The notes under the pieces: generated by a model
The model's database searches: none
Seen by the model: only the letters and a program-made list of their open reading frames with translations
Told to the model about the DNA's origin: nothing
Translations under genes and position numbers: made by a program
In this document: in pieces, positions 27,102 through 64,000 of the stretch
How the letters are laid out: each line of letters begins with the position of its first letter
How positions within the stretch are numbered: position 1 is the first letter of the stretch
From: Pseudomonas fluorescens Q2-87
Lineage (GTDB): Bacteria; Pseudomonadota; Gammaproteobacteria; Pseudomonadales; Pseudomonadaceae
NCBI RefSeq assembly: GCF_000281895.1
Contig: NZ_CM001558.1
Coordinates: forward strand, 5,832,556 to 5,896,555
Direction of reading: 5' to 3'
DNA: 64,000 nt

Positions 27102-27190
27102 GCCCAGCGTTTTTTTCGCTTTGTTGCAAGCACGGGTCCTTCCCTGCACCTGGCGCCTTTTTTCATTCTTTGCCTGGATATCCAAAAGCC

Positions 27191-29638
27191 TTGATTCGTC
27201 TGCTGAAATTTTTCGGATGGTCCATCGTCGCCGTTTTCTGCGGACTGCTCTTGGGCCTGAGCGGTGCGTATCTTTACCTTAGTCCGGGATTGCCGTCCGT
27301 GGAGGCGCTGAGAAGCATTCAGTTGCAGATTCCCCTGCGGGTGTACAGCAGCGACAACAAGCTGATCGCCGAATTTGGCGAAATGCGCCGCACACCGATC
27401 CGTTTCGCCGACATTCCGCCCAATTTCATCAATGCGTTACTAAGTGCTGAAGACGACAATTTCGCCAATCACTATGGCGTCGATCCCGGCAGCCTGATGC
27501 GCGCCGCCAGCCAGCTGGTCAAGAGCGGACATATACAGTCCGGCGGCAGCACCATCACCATGCAGGTGGCCAAGAACTTCTTCCTGACCAGCGAGCGCAG
27601 CTTCTCGCGCAAGACCACCGAGATTTTGCTGGCCCTGCAAATCGAGCGGCAGCTGACCAAGGATGAAATCCTCGAGCTGTACGTGAACAAGATCTACCTG
27701 GGCAACCGCGCCTACGGCATCGAGGCAGCAGCGCAGGTGTATTACGGCAAGTCGATCCGCGACGTGAGCCTGGCGCAGATGGCGATGATCGCCGGCCTGC
27801 CCAAGGCGCCATCGCGCTTCAACCCGCTGGCCAACCCGGCGCGCAGCAAGGAGCGTCGCGACTGGATCCTGGGGCGCATGTACAAGCTCGGCAAGATCAG
27901 CGAGGCCGACTACACCGCCGCGATCAATGAACCGTTGAACGCCAGCTACCACGTGCCGACCCCGGAAGTGAACGCCCCGTACATCGCCGAAATGGCCCGT
28001 GCCGAAATGGTCGGGCGCTATGGCAGCGATGCCTACACCGAAGGCTTTCGCGTGACCACTACGGTGCCGAGCAACCTGCAGGAAATGGCCAACACCGCGC
28101 TGCACGAAGGCCTGATGACCTACGACCAGCGCCACGGTTACCGGGGCCCTGAATCGCGCCTTCCAGGCAAGACCAAGCAGGCCTGGGCCTTGGAACTGAC
28201 CAAGCAGCGCACCATCAGTAGCCTGGAGCCGGCGATCGTCACGTCGGTGGACAAGGATGGCCTCAAGGTTCTGACCCGCAACGGCGAACTGGAAGAACAC
28301 GTGGGCTGGGACACCATGAAATGGGCGCACCCGTTCCTCAATACCAACAGCATGGGGGCCGCGCCGCGCCAGCCATCGGACGTCGCCCAGGTTGGCGATC
28401 TGATCCGCGTGCAGCGCCAGGCGGACAACACCCTCAAGTTCAGCCAGATCCCGGCCGCCCAGGGCGCGCTGGTATCCCTCGATCCGCAGGACGGTGCCAT
28501 CCGTTCGCTGGTGGGCGGCTTCGCCTTCGAGCAGAGCAATTACAACCGGGCATTGCAGGCCAAGCGCCAGCCGGGGTCGAGCTTCAAGCCATTCGTCTAC
28601 AGCGCCGCCCTGGATAATGGCTACACCGCCGCCAGCCTGGTGAACGATGCGCCAATCGTCTTTGTCGACGAATACCTGGACAAGGTCTGGCGACCGAAGA
28701 ACGACACCAACACCTTCCTGGGCCCGATCCGCCTGCGCGAAGCGCTGTACAAGTCCCGCAACCTGGTGTCGATCCGCCTGCTGCAAGCCCTGGGCGTGGA
28801 TCGCACCATCGACTACATCAGCAAGTTCGGCTTCAACAAGCAGGATCTGCCGCGCAACCTGTCCCTGGCACTGGGTACCGCAACCCTGACGCCGATGGAA
28901 ATCGCCACGGGCTGGAGCACGTTCGCCAACGGTGGCTACAAGATCACCCCGTACATCATCGATAAGATCGAAAGTCGCAACGGCGATACGCTGTTCGTCG
29001 CCAACCCGCCACGCGTCCCCACTGGCGAGCAGGCCAGTGATGGCGTCGCCGCGCCGGCCACCCAGGCCTTTACGGTCAATGCGACACCGGGTGAAGCGAC
29101 GACGGCACCAGCGGTACCGCAAGCGCCGGCCATCGCCGAACGCATTGTCGATGGACGTACCACCTACATCCTCAACAGCATGCTGCAGGACGTGATCAAG
29201 CTCGGCACCGGCCGCCGCGCCCTGGCCTTGGGTCGAACCGACCTGGCGGGCAAGACCGGTACTACCAACGAATCCAAGGATGCCTGGTTCTCCGGCTACA
29301 ACGCCGATTACGTGACCACCGTCTGGACCGGTTTCGACCAGCCCGAAAGCCTCGGTCGTCGCGAATTCGGCGGCACCGTGGCGCTGCCGATCTGGATGAG
29401 CTACATGGGCGCGGCCCTAAAGGACAAACCGCCACACACCCAGCCGGAGCCGGAAGGCATCCTCAGCCTGCGTGTCGACCCGGTCAGCGGCCGCGCGGCC
29501 ACGCCCGGCACTCCGGGCGCGTACTTCGAACTGTTCAAGAGCGAAGACACCCCACCGTCCGTCAATGAACTGGGCAATGGCTCCGCACCGGGCAGCCCGC
29601 TGCCGGCAGACGAAGCGGCGCCGATCGATTTGTTCTAA
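27191..29638 (+). CDS. ponA: Penicillin-binding protein 1A (bifunctional peptidoglycan synthase)
   Basis: A class A penicillin-binding protein of about 815 residues that polymerises glycan strands and crosslinks peptides in the periplasm. A short basic N-terminus and one membrane anchor (about 7-30) precede the GT51 domain, with EDDNFANHYGVD and GGSTITMQVAKNFFL. An OB-like insert follows. The transpeptidase domain has SxxK in PGSSFKPFVYS, SRN in YKSRNLVS and KTGTT. No ATG suits the start. A TTG at 27191 (then IRLLKFFGW) fits the family N-terminus best; a TTG at 27170 would add seven residues. It diverges from pilM, as is usual. Confidence 0.93.
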   Translation: MIRLLKFFGWSIVAVFCGLLLGLSGAYLYLSPGLPSVEALRSIQLQIPLRVYSSDNKLIAEFGEMRRTPIRFADIPPNFINALLSAEDDNFANHYGVDPGSLMRAASQLVKSGHIQSGGSTITMQVAKNFFLTSERSFSRKTTEILLALQIERQLTKDEILELYVNKIYLGNRAYGIEAAAQVYYGKSIRDVSLAQMAMIAGLPKAPSRFNPLANPARSKERRDWILGRMYKLGKISEADYTAAINEPLNASYHVPTPEVNAPYIAEMARAEMVGRYGSDAYTEGFRVTTTVPSNLQEMANTALHEGLMTYDQRHGYRGPESRLPGKTKQAWALELTKQRTISSLEPAIVTSVDKDGLKVLTRNGELEEHVGWDTMKWAHPFLNTNSMGAAPRQPSDVAQVGDLIRVQRQADNTLKFSQIPAAQGALVSLDPQDGAIRSLVGGFAFEQSNYNRALQAKRQPGSSFKPFVYSAALDNGYTAASLVNDAPIVFVDEYLDKVWRPKNDTNTFLGPIRLREALYKSRNLVSIRLLQALGVDRTIDYISKFGFNKQDLPRNLSLALGTATLTPMEIATGWSTFANGGYKITPYIIDKIESRNGDTLFVANPPRVPTGEQASDGVAAPATQAFTVNATPGEATTAPAVPQAPAIAERIVDGRTTYILNSMLQDVIKLGTGRRALALGRTDLAGKTGTTNESKDAWFSGYNADYVTTVWTGFDQPESLGRREFGGTVALPIWMSYMGAALKDKPPHTQPEPEGILSLRVDPVSGRAATPGTPGAYFELFKSEDTPPSVNELGNGSAPGSPLPADEAAPIDLF

Positions 29639-58385: not shown

Positions 58386-60290
58386 ATGTTCCGATGGCTG
58401 GGTAACGTTGGCGTCAACCGCAAACTAGGTTTCGGCTTCGGCCTGGTGCTCTTCCTGACCGTGATGATCGCCTTCACCGGTTGGAGCGGCTTGGGTAACG
58501 TGATCAGCCGTGGCGACAAGCTGGGCTTCATTGCCAGCCTGAACGATTTGAGCAAGGACCTGCTCCAGGCTAGCGACGACTACAACACCACCCGTGGTGA
58601 AAAAGGACCGCAACAGGTCAATGACCTGTTGGGCAAGCTCGACGCCGGGCTGAAGACCGCTCGCCAGTTGATCGAACAACCGGCCGATGTGGCCCTGATC
58701 GACCAGGAACTGGCCGCAGTCGCTGAATACAAGAGCGCTTTCGCCATGATGGCCCAGGCCACCGTCAACCGCGAAGATGCCCGCAGCAAACTCGGCGCCA
58801 GCGCCGACAACGCCGTGGCCCGCGTTGGCGATGTGGAACAGGCACTGCTGCAAGCCGGCGATATCACGCTGTTCAATAGCGTAGTGACCCTGAGCAAGGC
58901 TGTTCAGCAGGCGCGTTATCAGGTCCGCGGCTACACCTACAGCGGTAAGAGCGAAGCGCAGCAACCAGCGATCGTGGCCATCGACACGGTCCTCAAGCTG
59001 CTCGCACGCCTACCGGACCAATTGCCCGAGGAGCATGCCGCCAACCTGCAACAGGCTAGCGACTCGTTTAATCTCTATCGCGCGGCGGTCGCCCAGTTCC
59101 GTGACTCGCAGATCGAGAATGGCGCCGCACTCCAACGCATGACCGAGCAAGGCCAGGTGCTGATTGACGCCAGCCAGAAGCTGACTGTGTCGCAGACGGC
59201 TGTGCGTGATCATGATGCTACCCAGGCCAAGACTGTCTTGATCACAGCCGCCGCGCTGGCCCTGTTGTTCGGCGTCATCGCGGCCCTGCTCATCACCGGA
59301 CAGATCGTCGGCCCGCTCGGCGAGACCTTGAAGGTGGCTGAACGCGTAGCCGCAGGCGACCTGACCCACAACCTCACCTCCGACCGCCGCGACGAGCTTG
59401 GCCAGCTACAACGCGCCATGCAGAGCATGACCGTGGGTCTGCGGCAATTGATCGGCGGCATCAGCGAAGGCGTCACGCAAATCGCCAGCGCGGCCGAACA
59501 ACTCTCCGCCGTTACCGAACAGACCAGCGCCGGGGTCAACAGCCAGAAGGTGGAAACCGACCAAGTCGCCACCGCCATGCACGAGATGACCGCCACGGTG
59601 CAAGAAGTGGCGCGCAATGCCGAGGAGGCTTCCGAAGCGGCCGTCGCGGCAGACCAGCAGGCCCGCGAAGGCGAAAAAGTGGTCGGCGAAGCCATTGCCC
59701 AAATCGAACGCCTGGCCCTCGAAGTGGGTAATTCCACCGCAGCAATGGGCGACCTGAAGCGCGAAAGCGACAAGATCGGCAGCGTGCTGGACGTGATCAA
59801 GTCCGTGGCCCAGCAAACCAACCTGCTGGCCCTCAACGCCGCCATCGAAGCAGCCCGGGCCGGTGAAGCCGGGCGAGGTTTCGCGGTAGTGGCCGACGAG
59901 GTCCGGAGCCTGGCCCAACGCACCCAGAAGTCCACCGAAGAAATCGAAGAACTGATTGTCGGCCTGCAGTCGGGCACTGAGCAGGTCGCGGCCATCATGG
60001 ATAACAGCCGTAGCCTGACTGACAACAGTGTCGAACTGACCCGTCGGGCGGGTGGTTCACTGGAAAACATCACCCGCACGGTCTCGGCCATTCAGTCGAT
60101 GAACCAACAGATCGCCGCGGCGGCCGAGCAGCAGAGTTCGGTGGCTGAGGAGATCAATCGTAGTGTGCTGAATGTGCGTGATGTGTCGGAGCAGACGGCG
60201 TCGTCCAGCGAGGAAACGGCCGCTTCGAGTGCTGAGCTGGCGCGGTTGGGGGGGCATTTGCAGGCGTTGGTGGGGCGGTTTCGGGTTTGA
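58386..60290 (+). CDS. Methyl-accepting chemotaxis protein with HBM-type sensor domain (3 of 3)
   Basis: A 634-residue chemoreceptor that resembles the first one most closely ([40 protein letters not shown]). The order is TM1, helical HBM domain, TM2 near 283-305, HAMP ([19 protein letters not shown]) and a full signalling domain. It ends GRFRV without a CheR pentapeptide. The gene lies 117 bases after the second receptor with its own FliA-like site. The 3' part of the gene is strikingly similar in DNA to the others. Confidence 0.9.
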
Positions 60291-60366: not shown

Positions 60367-60668
60367 GTGTATATCCGTTTCTGCGGTGACGGCGAACTTG
60401 GTTTCGCCCTTACGGCGACTCACTTTCGAAAAGCGCGAAAGTAAGCAAAGCGCTTCTGCCCCACCACTCGGTGCCTCGCCTAGGCTCGGCATGCCCTCAC
60501 TCCGGCATTGCTCCGTGGGCCCGCCGCGAAGGGCCATCCATGGCCCAGCGCGGCTAACCCGGCATCCATGCCGGGATGCCCACTGCGCAATGCCTGCGTT
60601 CGGCCTGCGTGGTTAATGGGGCGCCCGAGATCAACATCCACCACGAGGCGGCCTTAGAGCCGACCTGG
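60367..60668 (+). repeat. Interspersed ~300-bp repeat, left copy (plus orientation)
   Basis: From GTGTATATCC to GCCGACCTGG. The reverse complement of 61010-61314 matches it along nearly the whole length, with exact blocks such as CTCACTCCGGCATTGCTCCG. It contains an inner palindrome, CCCGGCATCCATGCCGGG, and a frame (60365-60616) that I treat as non-coding. It resembles the abundant intergenic repeats of fluorescent pseudomonads. Confidence 0.85.
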
Positions 60669-61009: not shown

Positions 61010-61314
61010 CCAGGTCGGCTACTAGGCCGCCTCGCGGCGGACGTTGATCTCGGCGCCCCGTTAACCACGCTGGCCGAACGCAGGCATTGTGGAGTGGGCA
61101 TCCCGGCATGGATGCCGGGATAGCCGCGCTGGGCCATGGATGGCCCTTCGCGGCGGGCCCACGGAGCAATGCCGGAGTGAGGGCACACCGAGCCTAGGCG
61201 AGGTGCCGAGTGGTGGGGCATATAGCGTTTTGCTTACTTTTGCGCTTCTCAAAAGTGAGCCGCTGTAAGAGCGGAACCGTAAGCAGCCGTTACCTAAATA
61301 ACGGATATACATAC
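61010..61314 (-). repeat. Interspersed ~300-bp repeat, right copy (minus orientation)
   Basis: Inverted partner of 60367-60668, with the same ends (CCAGGTCGGC and GGATATACATAC). Differences are scattered substitutions and short indels, mostly in the outer ~90 bases. A minus frame (61061-61333) is the counterpart of the one in the left copy and is not considered a gene. Confidence 0.85.
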
Positions 61315-61398
61315 AAAAATACCTGAGCCCCACAATCCGTCATCCCAAGGCTACGGAGCCTTGCGCCATTGCCTACAACTACGCCAGAATCCGCCGGC

Positions 61399-61427
61399 TT
61401 GTGCGCCTTGGCCCCGGGTTCTAATGT
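61399..61427 (+). promoter_or_regulatory. Weak candidate promoter of the DUF6124 leader
   Basis: TTGTGC and TAATGT with 17 bases between them. A start about seven bases later, near 61434, would fall exactly at the first stem of the leader. Confidence 0.25.
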
Positions 61428-61433
61428 TTGCCG

Positions 61434-61629
61434 GTCGCTGTCAGTTCAGCGATCGGGTTTAGCAGCTCGGCACAATATCAAGGCACGCAGGTCCGCTTTA
61501 TGGCGGCTGTGCGTGGGGCACTTCGGTGCGCCGGGTTCCTTGATTCCTGGTCTGCTAACCCGCGTACTGCCGTCACCCTTTCGTTTAGCAGCGATGTCTG
61601 GCGGCTCCATCAATCAAGGAGCGTCAACC
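61434..61629 (+). promoter_or_regulatory. Structured, probably bistable 5' leader of the DUF6124 gene
   Basis: Nested stems are visible. Hairpin GGTCGCTG/CAGCGATC is at 61433-61454. Stem CGGGTTTAGCAG/CTGCTAACCCG (61454-61465 with 61552-61562, one bulge) encloses stem ATCAAGG/CCTTGAT (61477-61483 with 61538-61544). Inside lie arm CACGCAG-CCGC/GCGG-CTG-CGTG (61484-61515) and a TTCG-capped hairpin (61516-61531). Four of these strands recur downstream in the same order: CAGCGAT (61589), TTTAGCAG (61584), GGCGGCT (61600) and ATCAAGG (61613), the last overlapping the ribosome site AAGGAG at 61616-61621. CTGCTAA and CCTTGAT can therefore pair either upstream or with the ribosome-site region. Confidence 0.7.
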
Positions 61630-61971
61630 ATGCCCAAAGTCACACCCAACCCACCAGAACCCGAAACCGACCCCAAGAAACTCCAGGAAGCCACCGACCG
61701 CGCGCTCGATTTCTACCTCAAACCCAAACAGCCCCAATCCGAGAACGAACAGCCGCAGGGGCCGCTCTTTACCGTCGTGAACGGCATCGACACCGAAAGC
61801 CTCCTAGCCAACCTCAGCGAAACCCTGGCCTCAGCCGATGCCATGGTCAGCGACCTGGCATTCGACCTGGAAGGCTCACGACGCCATGTAGCCCTTGGCA
61901 TCCAGCAACTGATCGAGCTAAGCGGCTTGCTGGCGAACCGGGTGCTGGATAACGTCAACACACCAGCCTGA
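61630..61971 (+). CDS. Small DUF6124-type protein
   Basis: A 113-residue protein with no signal peptide or membrane segment. The N-terminus is proline-rich (MPKVTPNPPEPETDPKKLQE), followed by ATDRALDFYL. The conserved-looking C-terminal part (about 60-110) is helical: LLANLSETLASADAMVSDLA and RHVALGIQQLIELSGLLAN. Proteins of this type are common and often multicopy in Pseudomonas; their function is not known to me. The ATG at 61630 has AAGGAG eight bases upstream. A longer frame from 61369 runs through the structured leader and is rejected. Confidence 0.85.
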   Translation: MPKVTPNPPEPETDPKKLQEATDRALDFYLKPKQPQSENEQPQGPLFTVVNGIDTESLLANLSETLASADAMVSDLAFDLEGSRRHVALGIQQLIELSGLLANRVLDNVNTPA

Positions 61972-62145: not shown

Positions 62146-64000
62146 TCAGGCCAGTTGAGGCTGTACGCCCACGGGCTGAAGCGGTAGCAATGGCGCGTGA
62201 GGGTCAGCCTTTACCGACTCACGCCACGCCGCCAGCCACTCCGGATGTGCCTCGGCCCAGACCTGCTCATGCAGGCGGGACAGGGCCACCGGATCGCTCA
62301 GCAGCGCCAGGCGCTCGGCATTGTTGAGACCGGCAGGGCCAGCCTTCAAGGCGTGACGAACACGTTCGACCCGCAGCCATTCAATCGGCTCGGCCTTGCC
62401 GTGACGCGAAGTGGCCAATGCGTATGCCAAGGCGTTCTGTTGTGGATCGACCACCGCCCGGATGAAGCCGTCATTCAGCGCGTGCCAACGGTTTTCATGG
62501 GTGTACTGGTCCGTCGACAACAATTCCTGTGGCGGTGCGTATTCCTCGGGAATCAGGAACAGGCTTTCATCACGGGACTTCAAGCCCAGGCCAACGCGGC
62601 TGGAGATGACCGACACCGGGATCGACAGTATCAGCGACCCGACGATCGGCACCAGCCACCACAGGAAGCTGGGGTTCAGCCAGATCACCAGCAAGGCCCA
62701 GAAGAAGCCCAGCAGGGTTTGCGGACCGTGGCGCTTGGCCGCTTCGCTCCATGGTGTGGAATCGTCATCGCGTTTCGGCGAGTTCCAGGTCGCGGCCCAG
62801 CCCAGGAACGCGGCGAGCACGAAACGGGTGTGGAAGATCATCCGCACCGGCGCCAGCAACATGGAGAACAACATCTCCAGCAGCATCGACAGCGTCACCT
62901 TGAACTTGCCGCCAAACTCCTTCGCACCCTTGGCCCAGATCAGCACGATGCTCAACAGCTTGGGCAGGAACAGCAGGACAATGGTGGTCGAGAACAGGGC
63001 GATGGCCTTGTCCGGATGCCATTGCGGCCACAACGGATAAAGCTGGCGCGGTTCAAGGAAGTACTGCGGCTCCATCAGCGTATTCACCGCCAGCAGCGCG
63101 GTGGACAGCACCAGGAAGAAGAACCACAACGGTGCCGACAGATAAGACATCACGCCCGTCAGGAACACTGCACGGTGCACCGGGTGCATGCCCTTGACCA
63201 GGAACAGGCGGAAGTTCATCAGGTTACCGTGGCACCAGCGACGGTCACGTTTGAGTTCGTCCAGCAGGTTTGGCGGCAGTTCTTCGTAGCTGCCCGGCAG
63301 GTCGTAGGCAATCCAGACGCCCCAGCCAGCCCGACGCATCAACGCCGCCTCGACGAAGTCGTGGGACAGGATTGCCCCGGAGAACGCTCCTTTACCCGGC
63401 AACGGCGCCAAGGCGCAGTGGTCGATGAACGGCTTCATGCGAATGATTGCGTTGTGGCCCCAGTAGTGGGATTCGCCCAACTGCCAGAAGTGCAGGCCCG
63501 CAGTAAACAGCGGACCGTATACCCGTGTGGCGAACTGCTGCATGCGTGCATACAGCGTGTCCATGCCCGAGGCACGTGGCGCGGTCTGGATGATGCCGGC
63601 GTCCGGCGTGGCTTCCATCAGGCGCACCAGGCTGGTCAGGCATGTACCGCTCATGACGCTGTCGGCGTCGAGCACGACCATGTACTTGTAGTCGCTGCCC
63701 CAGCGACGGCAGAAGTCGTCGAGGTTACCGCTCTTGCGTTTCACACGGCGGCGACGGCGGCGATAGAAGATCTTGCCGAAGCCCCCGGTTTCCCGGCAGA
63801 CATCCAGCCAGGCCTGCTGTTCGGCGACGCAGATATCGGTTTCGTTACTGTCGCTGAGGACAAAGAAGTCGAAGCGATCCAGGTCGCCAGTGGCGGCCAC
63901 CGACTCGAAGGTCGCGCGCAGGCCGGCGAAAACCCGCGGCACGTCTTCGTTGCAGATCGGCATCACCAACGCGGTGCGGGCCTCTTTGGGAATCGGCTCG
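62146..64000 (-). CDS. opgH: Osmoregulated periplasmic glucan glucosyltransferase OpgH (5' end cut by window edge)
   Basis: An inner-membrane family 2 glycosyltransferase that polymerises the beta-1,2-glucan backbone of osmoregulated periplasmic glucans. The frame is open to the right edge (about 617 residues seen), so the N-terminus and first membrane helices lie outside. Visible are [16 protein letters not shown], the DxD site [24 protein letters not shown], the acceptor region [15 protein letters not shown] and the [10 protein letters not shown] motif. About six membrane segments follow (roughly 270-480 of the visible part) before a cytoplasmic C-terminus. OpgG would be expected upstream beyond the window. 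Confidence 0.96.

Follow-up and report, generated by a model that had tools for sequence, protein, structure and literature searches.

The leader of a DUF6124 gene in the 64,000-nucleotide stretch of Pseudomonas fluorescens Q2-87 DNA analysed here (the window) most probably forms a C4 antisense RNA module that silences this gene, with an upstream a1-b1 segment as decoy, a reading to which we assign a probability of roughly 85%. C4 is a gene-silencing antisense RNA that was first found in phage P1. By sequence comparison, the family membership of the leader, the order of its elements, the complementarity of its loops to flanking targets and the co-variation of loops with targets are established, and the RNA itself belongs to the known, curated C4 family.

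Results

Architecture of the leader

The leader passes the gathering thresholds of both C4 (RF01695) and c4-a1b1 (RF03163) in Rfam (Table 1), a comparison that the original prediction had recommended. Apart from these families, only a sub-threshold match of IsrK (RF01394) to the 5′ part of the leader appeared at E values up to 1 (28.6 bits, gathering 50); Rfam searches at gathering and at E up to 1 returned no described riboswitch or thermometer family in the leader. In the 28 copies over cut-off from this genome, the consensus three-stem C4 fold paired 97.0% of cells, with two-sided changes in 17 of 26 pairs. None of 500 shuffles equalled these values, and slid registers paired 30-41%; the test favours the fold, since the alignment tested had also supplied the structure. 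The GG at 61502 occupies the position homologous to that of RNase P processing, by which C4 is cut to about 77 nt. The target here is DUF6124, not the phage antirepressor operon as in P1 (the operon is not part of the Rfam definition); a2 is complementary to C4 over 7 nt and b2, which lies at the ribosome site, over 9 nt.

Table 1. Elements of the DUF6124 leader in window coordinates; loop names follow the order of the P1 annotation (a before b in the mRNA).
Feature	Position	Strand	Details
Putative sigma-70-type promoter	61399..61427	+	-35 TTGTGC 61399-61404, 17 nt, -10 TAATGT 61422-61427; by homology with P1
c4-a1b1 element (RF03163)	61421..61473	+	51.0 bits, gathering 46.7; first hairpin and a1 hairpin
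First hairpin GTCGCTG/CAGCGAT, within c4-a1b1	61434-61453	+	
a1 hairpin CGGG-TTTAGCAG-CTCG	61454..61469	+	8-nt loop 61458-61465 = a1; from sequence and the RF03163 structure line
b1 ATCAAGG	61477..61483	+	complementary to b′
C4 antisense RNA (RF01695)	61496..61580	+	74.8 bits, E 9.1e-13, gathering 45
Predicted mature C4 RNA	about 61502-61577	+	ends modelled on the P1 annotation
b′ loop CCTTGAT of C4	61538..61544	+	complement of b1 and b2
a′ loop CTGCTAA of C4	61552..61558	+	complement of a1 and a2
GCCGTCA, portion of C4 3′ arm	61569..61575	+	able to pair with either the 5′ arm of C4 or element c
a2 hairpin TCG-TTTAGCAG-CGA	61581..61594	+	a2 loop 61584-61591
Element c TGGCGGC, copy of C4 5′ arm	61599..61605	+	between a2 and b2
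b2 AATCAAGGA	61612..61620	+	9-nt complement to the b′ loop; overlaps the Shine-Dalgarno sequence
Shine-Dalgarno AAGGAG	61616-61621	+	from sequence
DUF6124 gene, 113 aa (PF19619)	61630..61971	+	start codon 61630; open reading frame and profile match

The original prediction had described four ordered duplicated segments (CAGCGAT at 61447 and 61589, TTTAGCAG at 61458 and 61584, GGCGGCT at 61502 and 61600, and ATCAAGG at 61477 and 61613), and all of them, as well as the complements CTGCTAA (61552) and CCTTGAT (61538) and the AAGGAG motif (61616), are found where it placed them. The duplications are thus real, but the GGCGGCT at 61502 belongs to the stem of C4, as its 5′ arm, and not to the upstream target, so that the four do not make up one simple ordered set. 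Two 7-mers occur twice and enclose their own reverse complement; when the region 61421-61650 was shuffled 5000 times with dinucleotides preserved, this number was matched in 4 shuffles (mean 0.009), and the count of eight for 7-mers that are simply duplicated was matched in 34. The triple arrangement of copy, complement and copy is beyond chance. Because both complements are part of C4, an RNA already known, an antisense RNA with an upstream decoy or competitor is the best supported reading of this arrangement, in preference to a riboswitch or thermometer.

In P1, at the annotated promoter P1c4, as in the window, the RF03163 match begins 1 nt before the -10 box, and cTAt..T is conserved in 23 copies from this genome aligned on the start of the c4-a1b1 match. 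A consensus promoter scan of the leader returned nothing at 61399-61427. A transcription start downstream of 61570, which would be at odds with the leader as first described, is not what homology with P1 points to, since the putative promoter lies upstream of the element. Just 5′ of this promoter (about 61360-61410), a conserved stretch of about 45 bases, TTGCGCC..TT.CCTACAACTACGCCAGAATCCGCCGG, is shared by many copies in this genome, and other copies carry a different sequence there; the stretch is possibly an operator for some regulator.

The protein encoded downstream had been assigned to DUF6124, and its match to the family profile (107.5 bits, cut-off 27) confirms this. Similar leaders had also been suggested for DUF6124 genes of other pseudomonads, and at 74 of 78 DUF6124 loci the end of C4 is indeed separated from the match to the gene by 44-56 nt.

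C4 loops and their targets change together

The pairings were compared across a set of leaders from this and other genomes. Altogether 162 leaders were collected, 28 from this genome and the rest with a model built from those copies; one (L138) was dropped as too short, and the remainder was reduced by shared 8-mers to 94 non-redundant leaders, comprising 28 from this genome, 65 from other Pseudomonas (35 + 30) and one from phage P1. Within this set, mean duplex energies for own versus foreign partners were -14.86 versus -8.90 kcal/mol for b′-b2, -13.49 versus -9.64 for b′-b1, -9.29 versus -5.93 for a′-a2 and -8.90 versus -6.14 for a′-a1, differences that in each case were reached in 0 of 5000 permutations. 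Controls against the gene body were flat for b′ (4185/5000 permutations) and for the 3′ arm (1155/5000), and not fully flat for a′ (93/5000, z -2.2). In each of the four pairings the leader's own partner is a better fit than a foreign one, so that the addresses are mostly private.

The a′ loop pairs with a2 at 7 of 7 positions in 86 of the 94 leaders, against a mean of 18.5 and a maximum of 28 with foreign a′ in 50 permutations; the corresponding count for a1 is at least 79 of 94, the a1 of the window, which has a shorter spacer, being left out. The three bases on each side of the a2 loop pair with each other in 0.908 of cells, compared with 0.766 when flanks are swapped, which places a2 in a hairpin loop. 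With 84 distinct b′ loops and 22 distinct a′ loops among the 94 leaders, b′ is the more private of the two, and little specificity can come from a′ by itself. The leader's own target ranked first among all targets for b′-b2 in 31 of 94 leaders, for b′-b1 in 14, for a′-a2 in 28 and for a′-a1 in 11. A test for perfect one-to-one orthogonality did not find it: when the comparison within this genome was made by summed a2 and b2 energies, the own target came first in 23 of 28 rows and in 21 of 28 columns, the exceptions being L002, L012, L015, L022 and L025.

The variety of loops also bears on the original suggestion of a translational riboswitch, RNA thermometer or sRNA-responsive leader. The idea of a leader that blocks the ribosome site is upheld, but a ligand riboswitch or thermometer is very improbable: alternating pairings over the Shine-Dalgarno sequence are what either would display, yet the Rfam matches are confined to those listed above, and the complementary loops differ from leader to leader, unlike a conserved aptamer.

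Units beside the same neighbours

In the window, the unit is flanked by a chemoreceptor gene (58386-60290) and a glycosyltransferase gene (62146-63969), both assigned by Pfam. Among the 78 DUF6124 loci, the glycosyltransferase recurs at 7 and the chemoreceptor at 6, for 9 loci in total. In L102, L103 and L105, which come from records of P. brassicacearum and P. kilonensis, the b copies are as in the window, save for one base in b2 of L103. In L115, L121, L123 and L106, b′ is TTCTAGGG, and both target copies are altered to match; in L127, a1, a′ and a2 are altered together (TTTCGCAG/CTGCGAA). L104 has a wholly different unit. Between species, the a and b copies would thus appear to change together with their complements in the way that selected pairing does, although replacement of the whole unit by a paralogue could mimic this. 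Conservation of one pairing only, or second copies free to drift, would have spoken against the leader as first described; both copies are conserved and change with the complement.

Copy number and distribution

C4 has 29 matches in this genome (28 over cut-off), c4-a1b1 has 25 (12 over cut-off), and DUF6124 has 28, representing about 25 complete genes. A DUF6124 match lies 176-210 nt downstream at 20 C4 copies. The other nine consist of one weak copy, one before a 52-aa frame with DUF3077 further on, and seven before small frames that mostly belong to no Pfam family (the frame at L010 is short, and that at L014 lay outside the Pfam scan). Conversely, eight DUF6124 matches, namely five complete genes and three fragments, are without C4, and the five complete genes count against the C4-module reading. 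The first hairpin is kept at three of these five. Duplexes of the C4-less genes with C4 RNAs encoded elsewhere reached -19.7 to -24.5 kcal/mol at best, not discernibly above the non-cognate background. At L094 (G000:C1:5027400-5028500), one of the five, the DUF6124 leader resembles a fusion between a1 and a2 that has lost C4 and would represent a natural deletion of it, and at L095 (G000:C1:3888600-3889800), a C4-less DUF6124 gene adjoins a PrrF sRNA match.

The module might be suspected of being a decayed prophage remnant that is now functionless, as C4 is a phage family, C4 has been lost at some DUF6124 genes and one such gene is split into two pieces (6143672-6143859). This is improbable in view of the compensatory changes in the stem and the targets, the open reading frame of the gene, and the chemoreceptor and glycosyltransferase neighbours, which are the same in other species.

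Across the genus, 138 of 149 Pseudomonas genomes carry C4, 137 of them over cut-off; the median is 13 copies, and 34 genomes have at least 27. DUF6124 is present in 118 of the 149, with a median of 5 and at least 38 in 7 genomes. The two counts correlate (Spearman 0.87; 0.83 in the 115 genomes with full counts), and none of the 118 genomes with DUF6124 was without C4. In the order sample, C4 occurs in 20 of 145 genomes, this one included, the others carrying 1-6 copies. In the phylum sample, 42 of 299 genomes have it, 40 of them over cut-off, and the largest numbers are 13 copies in a genome from the same family and 10 in another. DUF6124 is over cut-off in 4 of 299, all Pseudomonas, with one further weak match below. 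In the sample searched, DUF6124 is nearly confined to Pseudomonas.

The vicinity of the units is also populated by matches to the Rfam family TwoAYGGAY, a dispersed, repeat-like element that occurs in the window at 60517-60581 (-) and 61096-61160 (+). In this genome it has 29 matches, 28 over cut-off, often as (-)/(+) pairs some 300-650 bases apart. Sixteen of the 29 matches lie within 1.5 kb of a C4/DUF6124 unit, against 0.51 expected by rotation (16 was reached in 5 of 20000), as do 9 of 17 TwoAYGGAY clusters. One possibility is that this repeat builds up next to C4/DUF6124 units or is disseminated together with them. Elsewhere in the window, at 27169-27463 (-), lies a match to asponA (anti ponA RNA) of 122.7 bits.

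Genes downstream of C4

The genes that follow C4 were surveyed in other genomes of the genus, for the 29 C4 loci with the highest scores, a set that is biased for this reason. Judged by reading, the first frame encodes a small basic protein of 52-58 aa at 13 of these loci, a protein of one 175-aa type at 7 (cut short at one), DUF6124 at 3, DUF3077 at 1 and a member of a further small family at 2, with 3 uncertain. Pfam assigned two 175-aa frames to Bro-N, three frames to DUF6124 and one to DUF3077, and gave no family for three, among nine frames searched. Bro-N is a phage antirepressor-type domain, and its presence after C4 is likely a trace of P1-like origin. DUF6124 itself gave no match to PHROGs at E up to 0.1, nothing below E 0.58 among solved structures and only noise (E 0.09) in NCBIfam. 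A phage origin of DUF6124 was rejected on the PHROGs result together with a match in one phage record of 50,697 and none in 72,556 plasmids. In the phage DVM-2008 record EU982300 (L090), which is a Pseudomonas prophage record, a unit of C4 and DUF6124 is adjacent to genes for PrtR and holin.

A possible alternative fold in cis

A competing explanation is that C4 is never released and the leader acts in cis as a two-state switch, in which either C4 folds alone, or the ribosome site is closed by two pairings, that of the C4 3′ arm with element c and that of b′ with b2. The balance would be tipped by a1-b1, acting either within the transcript or as a separate short RNA. Element c (GGTGGCGGCTC-like) pairs with the 3′ arm at -12.5 kcal/mol in the window leader, and the mean for this pairing in the genome is -15.2 kcal/mol, compared with -5 to -9 for other downstream stretches. 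The predicted minimum free energy fold of 61421-61640 (-85.3 kcal/mol) contains both b′-b2 in cis and the arm-c pairing, enclosing a2. Across the 94 leaders, the arm-c duplex energy has a z of -5.7 (0/5000 permutations), and in register 0.741 of cells are paired versus 0.719 for non-cognate combinations (sd 0.0038, maximum of 2000 permutations 0.732). In the IsrK leader, moreover, inactive and active structures were demonstrated by mutation and native gels, according to the accessible text of that report (PMC4825925).

Arm-c co-variation is significant but small. It is weak by other measures: the own c was best in 0 of 94 leaders, 125 of 20000 permutations reached the value in this genome, and a +3 slide still pairs 0.610. 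Element c is possibly conserved merely as a copy of the 5′ arm. An automatic search for c misplaced it in P1, and, read by eye, the downstream CCTGCCACC and GGTAGCAGG of P1 would form a similar arm-c pairing. The C4 RNAs of P1 and Acinetobacter are, in the available text, reported as processed RNAs (PMC5320573), which argues against a C4 that stays in the transcript. Purely cis-acting control is therefore the less probable explanation, though one to be taken seriously. As for the two-state leader originally proposed, its mutually exclusive pairings, one of them over the ribosome site, are present, but the two states are here a product of fold prediction, and such a switch is possible.

Discussion

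Our analysis favours the C4 antisense module with an a1-b1 decoy, for which promoter use, RNase P cleavage, repression and decoy action can be inferred here. A single promoter would yield a transcript carrying a1-b1, C4, a2-b2 and DUF6124, from which C4 would be freed, probably by RNase P. The a′ loop of C4 would then pair with a2, which is displayed in a small hairpin loop, and b′ would pair with b2 across the Shine-Dalgarno sequence, leaving DUF6124 untranslated. In P1, according to the part of a review available, C4 blocks ribosome entry at b2, and by analogy DUF6124 would be blocked at b2 here. The upstream a1-b1 segment would offer C4 an identical bait and compete for it and, if released as a short RNA, could turn the gene on in the manner of IsrK.

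The P1 system (RF01695, c4-icd-ant) has the same order of promoter, a1, b1, C4, a2, b2 and start codon, matches both RF01695 and RF03163 as the window does, and likewise places b2 at the ribosome site. Unlike that of P1, the unit described here is chromosomal, has DUF6124 in place of icd-ant, exists in many copies per genome and has other a2 and b′ sequences. The C4 family was listed for Proteobacteria and phages in the portion of Weinberg 2010 available. In Acinetobacter baumannii, the accessible text of a 2016 report describes 21 Group 1 C4-like sRNAs in one genome, 15 of them full-length, with variable loops (PMC5320573). This set resembles the present one in its multiple copies and loop variability; it differs in that the same text assigns no cognate downstream targets (PMC5320573), whereas here most copies are followed in cis by an a2-b2 and a gene of their own.

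An activating role of a1-b1 would have its best precedent in the IsrK-orf45 leader of Salmonella Gifsy-1, for which inactive and active structures are described, the short IsrK RNA acting in trans to open the ribosome site of orf45 (PMC4825925). That leader combines alternative structures over a ribosome site with a short 5′ RNA that acts on it in trans (PMC4825925), as is proposed for the leader studied here. IsrK ends at its own terminator according to that text (PMC4825925), whereas a terminator scan found none in the window leader, and the term C4 antisense does not occur in its main text (PMC4825925). The same source names the P4 CI RNA with its SeqA-SeqC immunity system, in which a leader antisense RNA acts on flanking copies, as a structural homologue of IsrK (PMC4825925); the likeness to our leader is one of description, and the P4 CI RNA acts via transcription termination, whereas b2 covers the Shine-Dalgarno sequence here. 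A search of titles and the beginnings of abstracts in open-licence PubMed Central found no report on Pseudomonas C4-DUF6124 units or on DUF6124, which does not imply absence in print. The C4 family and the multi-copy Acinetobacter set are known.

More broadly, we consider it an even bet that a phage immunity switch has given rise to genus-wide, self-addressed silencers, in which dozens of C4 modules per genome, with mostly private b′ loops that change together with b1 and b2, control DUF6124 and other small or antirepressor-like proteins, and in which the decoy and element c provide an additional on/off layer. The C4 module accounts for a leader that had resembled an unknown riboswitch, and it gives a handle on DUF6124, a family found almost only in Pseudomonas among the genomes sampled. 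A natural set of paralogous antisense switches within one cell also makes directly testable how many RNA regulators are kept separate from one another.
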